Positions 31,631-39,083 of a DNA stretch of 39,083 nt are shown piece after piece (position 1 is the stretch's first letter; the number at the start of each line of letters is the position of its first letter). The notes under the pieces are model-generated. The model saw nothing but the letters and a program-made list of their open reading frames with translations, did not search any database and was not told where the DNA came from. Origin of the DNA: an uncultured Spartobacteria bacterium (GTDB taxonomy: Bacteria; Verrucomicrobiota; Verrucomicrobiia; Chthoniobacterales; Chthoniobacteraceae); the NCBI GenBank assembly GCA_903933715.1, contig CAIZLD010000054.1:1-39083 (forward strand), written 5' to 3'. A program made the translations under genes and the position numbers.

Positions 31631-33475
31631 TTAGCGCCCCGAATTGGCAAGTTTGGCAATCGCTTCCGGAGATGCCTGTTCCAGATCGGGTGAGATATTG
31701 AGGTAATGAGCGGTCTGTTCGCCGATCCGGGAGAAAGAAGGACCGGCCACCAGGCCGCCGTAAGTGAGGTTTTCAGCCGCCTTGGGATCATAAGCCATCA
31801 CAAGGCATACAACCTGCGGATCGTCCACGGGGAAAAAGCCGACAAAAGAGGTGACGTAGCGGTTCTCGTAATAACCGCCCCCATTGGGCTTGGCGATGTT
31901 GGCCGTGCCGGTCTTGCCGCCGGTGGAGTAGCCGGGGATGGCTGCTCCAAATGCGGTGCCGCGTTTGCTGACGACATCTTTCAACGCGGAGCGCAGCTTG
32001 GCGGCCGCTTCGGAGGACACCACTTCCCGCATCTGCACGGGGGTGAAATCGACGATGCTTTTCCCGCTCTCATCGACCACGGCATCGACGATTTGCGGCA
32101 TCATGAGATGGCCGCCATTGGCAATGGCGCTCATCGCGGCGATCATCTGGATCGGAGTGACGCAGACCCCCTGCCCCATCGGCATCCGGGTGATGGTCAA
32201 AACATTCCACCCGGCGCTCTTTGGGGAGTGGACAATGCCGGGGACTTCGCCGGGGAGATTGATGCCGGTGCGTTCGCCAAAACCGAAGGCGCGGACGTAT
32301 TCGTAAAAGCGCTGTTCACCCAGCTTCATCCCGAGCTTGGCACAACCGATGTTGCTCGATTTGACGACGACATCGAAAACATTCAGGTCGGGATGATCGC
32401 AATGGCCGTGGTCTTTGAGGATTTTGCCGCCGTAGAAAAACCGCCCCCCTTCGCAGTTGATCATGGTGTCGAGGTCCACCAGTTTTTCATTGAGGGAGGC
32501 GGAAACGGGAACGATTTTGAATACCGAGCCCGGCTCGACGACATTGATCACGGCGGCGTTTTTCATCGCCTCCGGCTTGATCTTATCGGTCTCCCCTTTG
32601 GTCAGGTCGTTCGGATCGAAGCACGGCCGGTTGGCCATGGCCAGGATGCGCCCGGTCTTGGGGTCCATCATGATGGCGGTGGCGAATTCGGGCCGGTATT
32701 GCTTGTAGAGCCCCTCCAACTCGGTCTCGACGATATGCTGCAACTGCATGTCGATGGTGAGCCGCACATTGTAGCCGTCGCGGGAGGGACGCTCCTGGCC
32801 CCGGTAGGGGACGATCTCTTTGCCGGTGCGGTCCCGCTCGATGTAGCGGAAGCCGTCATAGCCACGCAGCCATTTGTCCATGGTGCGCTCCACCCCTTCC
32901 ACGCCGACCCGCTCGCTTTCCTCCACGCCCGCAAAACGGGTTCGCTTTTCCCCGATAAACCCGAGGACATGGCACAACGTTTCGCTGTTGGGGTAGACCC
33001 GCCGGGTGTCCGGCTCAAAGAAAATCCCCCGGATCGGTTTCCGGTTCTTCGCCTGGAACTCCTCCATCCGCTGGGTCAATAACGTCGTTTCCGCTTCAGT
33101 GATCCCTTTTTTTAAAACCACGTATTTGCGGGAGGTATCGATCTTCTCCTTAAGTTTCGAGGCGGAGATCTTCAGCGGCCCGGCCAGAACGGAGGCGATT
33201 TCGGAAGGGGTCACCTTTCCGGCCGCAACGACGCTCCCATCCACCACGACGTTATTGAGCGGTTCGTTGGCCGCGAGCAATTCGCCTTTGGTGTCGAGAA
33301 TCACGCCGCGCCGGGCGGCAATGATCTGTTTTTTGACATGTTTTTCCGCCGCCAACCGCTCGAATTTCTCGTGCTCGTGGACTTGCAGATAGACCAAACG
33401 GGCCGAAAAGCCTGTAAAAGCGCACACCAAGCCAAAGCAGACAAAAATTGCTCTTACTTTGGCGGTTTTGTTCAT
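31631..33475 (-). CDS. ftsI: Septal transpeptidase FtsI (class B penicillin-binding protein)
   Basis: FtsI (PBP3) crosslinks septal peptidoglycan with FtsW. The 614-aa protein has an N-terminal membrane anchor (about 7-29), the class B dimerisation domain (RRGVILDTKGELLAAN; DTRRVYPNSETLCHVLGFIG; VGVEGVERTMDKWLRG) and a transpeptidase domain with the active serine in EPGSVFK (S317, K320), SSN (373-375) and KTGT (521-524). No PASTA domain follows. Its start overlaps the ftsL stop by four bases. Confidence 0.97.
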   Translation of the reverse strand: MNKTAKVRAIFVCFGLVCAFTGFSARLVYLQVHEHEKFERLAAEKHVKKQIIAARRGVILDTKGELLAANEPLNNVVVDGSVVAAGKVTPSEIASVLAGPLKISASKLKEKIDTSRKYVVLKKGITEAETTLLTQRMEEFQAKNRKPIRGIFFEPDTRRVYPNSETLCHVLGFIGEKRTRFAGVEESERVGVEGVERTMDKWLRGYDGFRYIERDRTGKEIVPYRGQERPSRDGYNVRLTIDMQLQHIVETELEGLYKQYRPEFATAIMMDPKTGRILAMANRPCFDPNDLTKGETDKIKPEAMKNAAVINVVEPGSVFKIVPVSASLNEKLVDLDTMINCEGGRFFYGGKILKDHGHCDHPDLNVFDVVVKSSNIGCAKLGMKLGEQRFYEYVRAFGFGERTGINLPGEVPGIVHSPKSAGWNVLTITRMPMGQGVCVTPIQMIAAMSAIANGGHLMMPQIVDAVVDESGKSIVDFTPVQMREVVSSEAAAKLRSALKDVVSKRGTAFGAAIPGYSTGGKTGTANIAKPNGGGYYENRYVTSFVGFFPVDDPQVVCLVMAYDPKAAENLTYGGLVAGPSFSRIGEQTAHYLNISPDLEQASPEAIAKLANSGR

Positions 33476-37468: not shown

Positions 37469-37771
37469 GCCTTGGGTGCCCAGGCAAAAAGAAGGGCGCG
37501 GCCCTGCCGCGCTGGTCCCGGTGGCCCTAGAAAGCCAGACACCAAAACACGACCGAACCGCGCCGATTGTCGGCGTGGTCAGTAAATGCTTGGTGTCGTC
37601 TAAAAATTTCTAGGTTTCCGGGACGCCCAATCTGCCTGCGCAGTTTTAAAATGTAATGTTTACGATGGAAATCTCCCAAATTGCCCCCTCAAGGTCAACT
37701 GGTTTCAGACTTCGCTCCCGCCATTCGACATTGACTTGGCGGGCCAATTCCTTCCCAATCCCAACCGCGCC
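37469..37771. other. Intergenic region with structured hairpins
   Basis: No gene seen between the zinc-ribbon gene (leftward) and aroE (rightward). It holds a 7-bp hairpin GCGCGGC/GCCGCGC at 37496-37512, the nested hairpin at 37526-37614 and an A/T-richer stretch near 37640-37675 that could carry the aroE promoter. A TTG at 37736 could extend aroE by 12 residues. Confidence 0.5.
37526..37614. repeat. Nested imperfect palindrome of 89 bp
   Basis: Three nested stems are visible: outer CCTAGAAA (37526-37533) with TTTCTAGG (37607-37614); middle GACACCAA (37538-37545) with TTGGTGTC (37590-37597); inner ACCGCGCCGA (37557-37566) with TCGGCGTGGT (37570-37579), a 10-bp stem with one G-T pair and a 3-nt loop. 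It lies 58 nt upstream of the zinc-ribbon start. It may be an RNA structure or the remnant of a small palindromic element. Confidence 0.6.
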
Positions 37772-38695
37772 ATGAAAGATCTCTACACGCTCGAAGATTT
37801 GCGGCATTGGGAAACCGCCACCGCCGGGGAACCGCTCCCCATCCGGCTCGGCGTTTTTGGCGATCCGGTGGCCCATTCCCGCTCCCCCCAGATGCTCAAC
37901 GCCGCCCTGGAGGCGTGCGGCATCCCGGCGCGCTATTGCCGGCTTCATATCCGGCCCGAGGAATTTGCCGAAGCGGCCCGCCTGTTGCCCCAGGCCGGTT
38001 TTATCGGAGCCAATGTCACTGTGCCCCACAAAATCGCCGCGATGAATGAGGCGGATGTCGTGGACGAAAACGCCCGCAAAATCGGTGCCGTCAACACGCT
38101 CGTGGTCGAAGGCGAACGCCTCCTCGGGTTCAACACCGACGGCCCCGGTTTGATGCGGGCGATCCGGGCGGAGTTCGGGGTCGATCTGCGTGATTTGCGG
38201 GTGATGGTCCTTGGGGCGGGCGGCGGCGCAGGCCGGGCCATCGCCGCCCAGTGCGCGCTGGAAGGGTGCGAACGGCTCGTGCTGGTGAACCGGACGCTTG
38301 AGAAGGCGCGGGAGGTCGCCGCCGAATTGGCTCCCTATTTCAAAGGCCCGCGTGTGTATGGACCGCTGCACCGGCTGGAGGCGGTCCCCTGGGAAGAAAC
38401 CAAGCTGGCTGCGCAACTGACCCAGACCGACCTCGTCATCAATGCCACCTCTTGTGGCATGAAACCGACCGACCCGTCGGTGCTTCCCGAGTCGATCCTC
38501 CAAGCCAACCTGCTTGTTTTCGACACAATTTACACCGCCCGGCGCACCCCGCTGGTGGAAGCGGCGCAAACGGTTGGAGCCCGTGCCGCCAACGGCCTTT
38601 CAATGCTCCTTTACCAGGGCGTTCTCGCGTTTGAAATCTGGTTCAACCGCACCGCCCCGGTGGAGATCATGAAAAAGGCGCTTAGCTCCGCTTAA
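37772..38695 (+). CDS. aroE: Shikimate dehydrogenase
   Basis: AroE reduces 3-dehydroshikimate to shikimate with NADPH in aromatic amino acid synthesis. The chosen ATG gives 307 aa, slightly longer than usual owing to about 20 extra N-terminal residues; a TTG at 37736 would add 12 more. Motifs: GVFGDPVAHSRSPQMLNAAL (substrate site), GANVTVPHKIAAM (catalytic Lys), GAVNTLV, GFNTDGPGLM, the cofactor loop VMVLGAGGGAGRAIAAQ, VNRT (NADP-binding Arg), INATSCGM and GLSMLLYQGVLAFEIW. Its last 99 bp recur in altered form at 38853-38951, beyond a hairpin repeat, so the present C-terminus (IMKKALSSA) may not be the ancestral one. Confidence 0.94.
   Translation: MKDLYTLEDLRHWETATAGEPLPIRLGVFGDPVAHSRSPQMLNAALEACGIPARYCRLHIRPEEFAEAARLLPQAGFIGANVTVPHKIAAMNEADVVDENARKIGAVNTLVVEGERLLGFNTDGPGLMRAIRAEFGVDLRDLRVMVLGAGGGAGRAIAAQCALEGCERLVLVNRTLEKAREVAAELAPYFKGPRVYGPLHRLEAVPWEETKLAAQLTQTDLVINATSCGMKPTDPSVLPESILQANLLVFDTIYTARRTPLVEAAQTVGARAANGLSMLLYQGVLAFEIWFNRTAPVEIMKKALSSA
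38597..38695 (+). repeat. Direct repeat, copy 1 (3' end of aroE)
   Basis: The last 99 bp of aroE. Its first 68 bp (38597-38664) are identical to 38853-38920; the remaining 31 bp differ in sequence but keep the same frame and length to the stop. Confidence 0.95.
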
Positions 38696-38719
38696 TTGCG
38701 AATTTCTATCATTTTAATT

Positions 38720-38790
38720 TCTCGCAAAGACGCAAAGGCGCAAAGAAGAGAAGGCTTGTCTTTCCTTTGCGCCTTTGCGTCTTTGCGAGA
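38720..38790. repeat. 26-bp perfect inverted repeat (CGCAAAG-type hairpin)
   Basis: The arm at 38720-38745 (TCTCGCAAAGACGCAAAGG...) is the exact reverse complement of 38765-38790, with a 19-nt loop. Each arm is itself made of three CGCAAAG units. It starts 25 nt after the aroE stop and may act as a transcription stop, though no T-run follows. Confidence 0.95.
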
Positions 38791-38852
38791 GACAAATTCC
38801 TATTCGGGCGTGAATCAGACTTCATTCGTGAGCACGCCTAAGATTTTTCCCG

Positions 38853-38951
38853 CTTTCAATGCTCCTTTACCAGGGCGTTCTCGCGTTTGAAATCTGGTTC
38901 AACCGCACCGCCCCGGTGGAAGTGATGCGAAAGGCGTTGATCGAGGCTTAG
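38853..38951 (+). pseudogene. Duplicated 3' fragment of aroE
   Basis: A 99-bp copy of the aroE end without the rest of the gene. After 68 identical bp the two copies diverge but remain homologous: copy 1 encodes EIMKKALSSA and stops at TAA, this copy encodes EVMRKALIEA and stops at TAG. There is no start or upstream coding sequence, so it is not expressed as AroE. The divergent ending looks like a native AroE C-terminus, as if the hairpin and a partial copy were inserted into an aroE gene. Confidence 0.9.
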
Positions 38952-39083
38952 GCTGAATCGACATTCGATCGAGCCCCAAACCCAATGGGTTTGAAGCCCA
39001 TAGCCGGTGGTTGAGCGAAGCGACACCACCGGATGAGGTGTTGAAAAGAATTCACCTCAAAGGGGTGGCAGAACCATCGCCTC
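38952..39083. repeat. Terminal stretch with two short palindromes
   Basis: No gene seen. AAACCC-AAT-GGGTTT lies at 38978-38992 and an 8-bp stem CCGGTGGT/ACCACCGG at 39004-39032 encloses GAGCGAAGCG. The stem shares the CCGGTGG core with the palindromes at 255-274. The window ends shortly after. Confidence 0.6.

Follow-up and report, generated by a model that had tools for sequence, protein, structure and literature searches.

The 3' end of aroE, the gene for shikimate dehydrogenase, occurs twice in the DNA analysed here (the window, 39,083 nucleotides, which is the complete contig C54 of G000, a 2.8-Mb verrucomicrobial draft genome in 77 contigs, for which the closest named relatives found are MAGs labelled Spartobacteria and Verrucomicrobia), and past an identical 68-bp segment the two copies continue into different aroE endings. 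The explanation that we favour, with about even confidence, is that the locus is the scar of an additive, one-sided recombination with a diverged donor that carried a hairpin. It looks like an ordinary recombination scar and not like a new kind of mobile element, and recombination with a second strain is also the best supported of the readings offered by the initial annotation. In a genome rich in interspersed hairpins, the locus is a compact illustration of how a housekeeping gene can gain a new C-terminus while its former one stays on as a remnant.

Two endings of one gene

The intact aroE reading frame comprises 319 codons and scores 222.7 bits against the TIGR00507 profile, whose cut-off is 200.2. 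Its 3' end takes part in a direct repeat of 98 nt (38597-38694 versus 38853-38950, spacing 256, 89% identity), the second copy of which was recovered in a six-frame search as a 5'-truncated aroE remnant of 32 residues with 84% identity. The interval between the copies contains the stop codon of aroE, then a hairpin element and, after it, 46 bp of unique sequence (Table 1). As had been noted earlier, identity gives way to divergence within the repeat: exactly 68 bases are identical, the left edge being set by mismatches (AACGGC versus TTCCCG directly before it), and mismatches then occur at 12 of 31 positions. Of the 99 positions compared, only the final 31 contain any of these 12 mismatches (P = 1.5e-7 under even scatter), a clustering on which we reject simple drift of one copy; the change from full identity to such a density of mismatches is not a gradual one. 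To the left of 38597 and 38853 no sequence match was found, nor is any microhomology evident at the right-hand junction. The 26-bp perfect inverted repeat previously described between the copies is also present.

Table 1. Features of the aroE locus at the end of the window
Feature	Position	Strand	Basis or remark
aroE (shikimate dehydrogenase), intact ORF ending EIMKKALSSA*	37736..38695	+	ORF and profile match
Copy 1 of the identical 68-bp segment, within aroE	38597..38664	+	
Tail A, divergent, unusual aroE ending	38665..38695	+	
CGCAAAG hairpin element	38712..38806 (about)	.	closest sibling G000:C56:10570-10664, 96% over 95 bp
Left arm of 26-bp perfect inverted repeat	38720..38745	+	
Right arm of 26-bp perfect inverted repeat	38765..38790	+	
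Unique sequence from hairpin to copy 2	38807..38852	+	junction without homology at 38852/38853
Copy 2 of the 68-bp segment, 5'-truncated, stranded	38853..38920	+	
Tail B, genus-like aroE ending EVMRKALIEA*, stranded	38921..38951	+	
Half of a large palindromic interspersed repeat, ~135 bp per half	38949..39083	.	contig ends inside

Comparison with relatives can indicate which of the two endings is the older. Each of the four same-genus genomes (G001-G004) has a single aroE end and an AroE protein 76-80% identical to that of G000, and in all four the protein ends in EVM(R/K)AAM plus a few residues. At the DNA level tail B scores higher than tail A in every one of them (15 vs 12, 17.5 vs 12.5, 18 vs 13 and 19 vs 16), while beyond the genus the picture is mixed, with L007, L010 and L012 favouring tail A. 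Judging from these sequences, the odd ending is the one on the intact aroE, whereas the stranded piece has the ending usual in the genus. Since tail B is closer to the same-genus endings, the 3' end of aroE was most likely replaced and the old one left stranded, in agreement with the initial annotation, which had proposed a new 3' end for aroE and called for such a comparison. Tail A is itself homologous to aroE endings and would therefore have come with an aroE allele, and the abrupt departure of the living copy from the genus points to recombination with a different allele of the gene. Against recombination it may be said that two alleles whose tails differ this much should show differences in the 68 bp as well, unless the crossover fell exactly at the edge; the lack of evident microhomology at the right-hand junction also counts against it, as does the failure to find a donor in the genus.

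In the four same-genus genomes we did not find a donor sequence for tail A together with its flank. The sequence 3' of aroE differs among them (in G001 gpsA follows directly, in G004 a hairpin comes before gpsA, and G002 and G003 have other sequence there), which is consistent with repeated change at this position. In G004, two oppositely oriented copies of a longer version of the hairpin flank aroE (L222, G004:C2:320001-340000; C2:333205-334427), and these longer copies share their flanks (tcaaacgccactaaa...).

Hairpins and other duplicated gene ends

The arms of the aroE hairpin extend, imperfectly, to 32 nt (38720-38751 and 38759-38790, 94%), and its DNA fold has a z-score of -9.1, with 0 of 200 shuffled sequences folding as well. 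It is one member of a repeat family that has dozens of copies both in G000 and in G004: for the triple CGCAAAG motif we counted 97 occurrences in G000 and 71 in G004, as compared with 11 times in G001, 11 in G003 and none in G002. The motif is rare elsewhere in the phylum, being present in 8 of 144 other sampled genomes, at no more than 5 copies each. A literature search for the hairpin sequence returned no paper. The repeats resemble REP/RAYT-type palindromes (PMC3733652) in being short, palindromic and numerous and in sharing their genome with Y1-family transposases, for which G000 has three genes (Y1_Tnp); they differ in sequence, consisting of CGCAAAG heptamers, and no transposase was linked to them in this analysis. 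In the hairpin copies listed, the foot shows no evident GTAG or CGTC tag, and the string CGCAAAG was not found in PMC3733652.

One may consider that the hairpin itself caused the event, either by stalling replication or as a mobile hairpin whose insertion duplicates a long target, so that the neighbouring gene end is copied. We examined the 500-bp flanks of 56 hairpin clusters, five of which, at four loci (aroE, ftsY on C10, and loci on C18 and C8), have long flanking direct repeats, the other 51 having none; in a cross-locus control, direct matches appeared in 14 of 300 pairs, owing to shared repeats. On C18 a hairpin-bearing unit of 158 bp is duplicated in tandem at 94% identity (L114, G000:C18:66500-68200), and on C8 the same holds for a hairpin-bearing repeat cassette of 242 bp, at 95% (L101, G000:C8:33500-35400). 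These tandem duplications mark the CGCAAAG repeats as sites of local duplication and speak for a causal hairpin, as does the presence of a gene end on both sides of such repeats at aroE and ftsY, the only hairpin loci examined where a hairpin lies between duplicated gene ends. As a rule, however, the hairpin is rejected as the cause of flanking duplications, given 5 clusters out of 56 and two of the four loci being tandem repeat copies; in 400 kb of G004, moreover, none of 12 hairpins has a duplicated gene end. The earlier proposal that the hairpin arrived with a long target duplication is only weakly supported: ftsY is the only recurrence of the pattern among the 56 clusters, and what follows copy 1 is itself an aroE ending, an aroE-like tail that a target duplication leaves unexplained. 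On balance we find it rather unlikely that the hairpin caused the aroE event. The broader claim, that CGCAAAG hairpins, expanded in two species of the genus, repeatedly cause the 3' ends of neighbouring genes to be copied and so swap housekeeping C-termini, seems to us very improbable; if hairpins did drive such copying, the repeat load of a genome would have a direct influence on how its core genes end.

Two further gene ends in G000 are duplicated in a comparable way. At ftsY (L103, G000:C10:32400-33800) the copies, C10:32847-32978 and 33159-33290, span 132 bp at 95% identity and enclose a repeat cassette that includes half a hairpin; the name follows the best NCBIfam rank, the 167-aa fragment being below the model cut-off. 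The other case, the one further gene-end duplication in a survey for short-range duplications (1.18 Mb of G000 in sampled stretches, with 41 hairpin clusters), is a sigma-54 regulator (L163, G000:C29:80001-100000; C29:81672-81752 versus 82465-82545, 81 bp, 97.5%), whose copies enclose an Unstab_antitox/ParE pair, i.e. a toxin-antitoxin addiction module, and no hairpin. Of the three gene-end duplications, two contain CGCAAAG repeats. This is a larger share than one would expect from the density of hairpins and counts against the favoured explanation, although the numbers are too small to test. Since aroE and ftsY are the only such cases among the hairpin loci, and the regulator was duplicated with no hairpin present, the hairpin is more likely a passenger than a cause, and its role in the aroE event was probably passive.

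In both of these genes it is the stranded copy that has changed, as expected of dead copies: that of ftsY departs from a glycine kept in the genus, and that of the regulator has a K to M change. Such drift is what plain tandem duplication followed by divergence of one copy would produce, but at aroE all 12 changes are crowded into the last 31 positions and it is the functional copy, not the stranded one, that departs from the genus, so that we consider this origin of the aroE locus highly improbable.

Integrases that target gene ends leave the host gene with a core and a foreign tail, followed further on by a second core and the host tail. This is the arrangement seen at aroE, where the 68 bp might be an attachment core of an element since mostly lost. 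Only 188 bp separate the two cores, however, with no integrase or remnant of one, and the three duplicated gene ends have no evident common core; site-specific integration is accordingly a most improbable origin.

A proposed recombination route and known parallels

From the anatomy of the locus we infer the following route for the favoured additive recombination. The donor, either a diverged relative or a second allele, would have supplied DNA on which an aroE ending was followed by the hairpin repeat. It would have paired with the resident aroE near the 3' end, replacing the ending there. On a sister copy of the chromosome, the other end of the donor DNA would have been attached immediately upstream of the resident 68-bp segment, at a point where the two have no homology. 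The product would consist of the host gene body, the 68-bp segment, donor tail A, the hairpin as cargo, the second 68-bp copy and host tail B. Such a product should have one junction within homology, and indeed the body of aroE continues into tail A as an intact gene, and tail A is homologous to tail B; its second junction should have no homology or microhomology only, and to the left of the two 68-bp copies nothing matches.

Homologous-plus-illegitimate recombination is a known kind of event, which has been proposed, and observed in competent bacteria (PMC5361080, PMC2884548). In its homology-facilitated form it has been proposed for effector displacement in Vibrio cholerae (PMC5361080), and a homologous/illegitimate mechanism has also been proposed for small variable segments (PMC2884548). 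As with the displaced gene endings of V. cholerae T6SS effectors and the C-terminal displacement of Rhs (PMC5361080), aroE appears to have a new 3' end on a conserved gene body, older material downstream, and one homologous and one non-homologous junction; unlike in those systems, the gene is a housekeeping one and the cargo is a hairpin only, with no toxin or immunity gene. In Helicobacter pylori, according to the part of PMC1643837 that relays Nobusato et al. (2000), insertion occurs with a long target duplication, the cargo often being restriction-modification genes. The aroE insert likewise lies between two long direct target copies, but it differs in that its cargo is a hairpin and the copies differ in their ends.

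The contig end and the assembly

A duplication of this kind might be produced by the assembly, through the merging into one contig of two strains that differ in their aroE ending. The sample may hold several strains, the draft is in 77 contigs, and C54 ends (at 39083) only 132 bp past the duplicated aroE tail, copy 2 running directly into the palindromic repeat in which the contig end lies. Against an artefact, the junction at 38852/38853 offers no overlap through which a graph assembler could re-enter the 68-bp segment. Contig ends have 126-140 bp of repeat in common, a sign that the word length of the graph was well above 68, and in the 1.18 Mb of G000 sampled we found no other exact non-repetitive short-range duplication, those of ftsY and the regulator containing mismatches. 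The junction, the word length and the lack of a second such duplication argue against a graph artefact; a misjoin of two strains may nonetheless underlie the duplication, and altogether we judge an artefact unlikely. A fixed-length k-mer artefact was considered separately and no pattern supporting it was seen (the ends share 126-140 bp and the overlaps measure 128 and 96, which gives the assembler's word length only imprecisely).

The palindromic repeat of 38949-39083 has dozens of copies in G000, and several contigs begin or finish in the palindrome. The gpsA gene of G000 is found on C59, and the first bases of this contig are half of a repeat of the same palindromic family that ends C54. C54 and C59 may be neighbours on the gpsA side, although the many copies of the repeat leave this adjacency unproved. 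Near the start of the contig, at 1217-1756 of the window, there is also a diverged direct repeat of 236 bp (68%).
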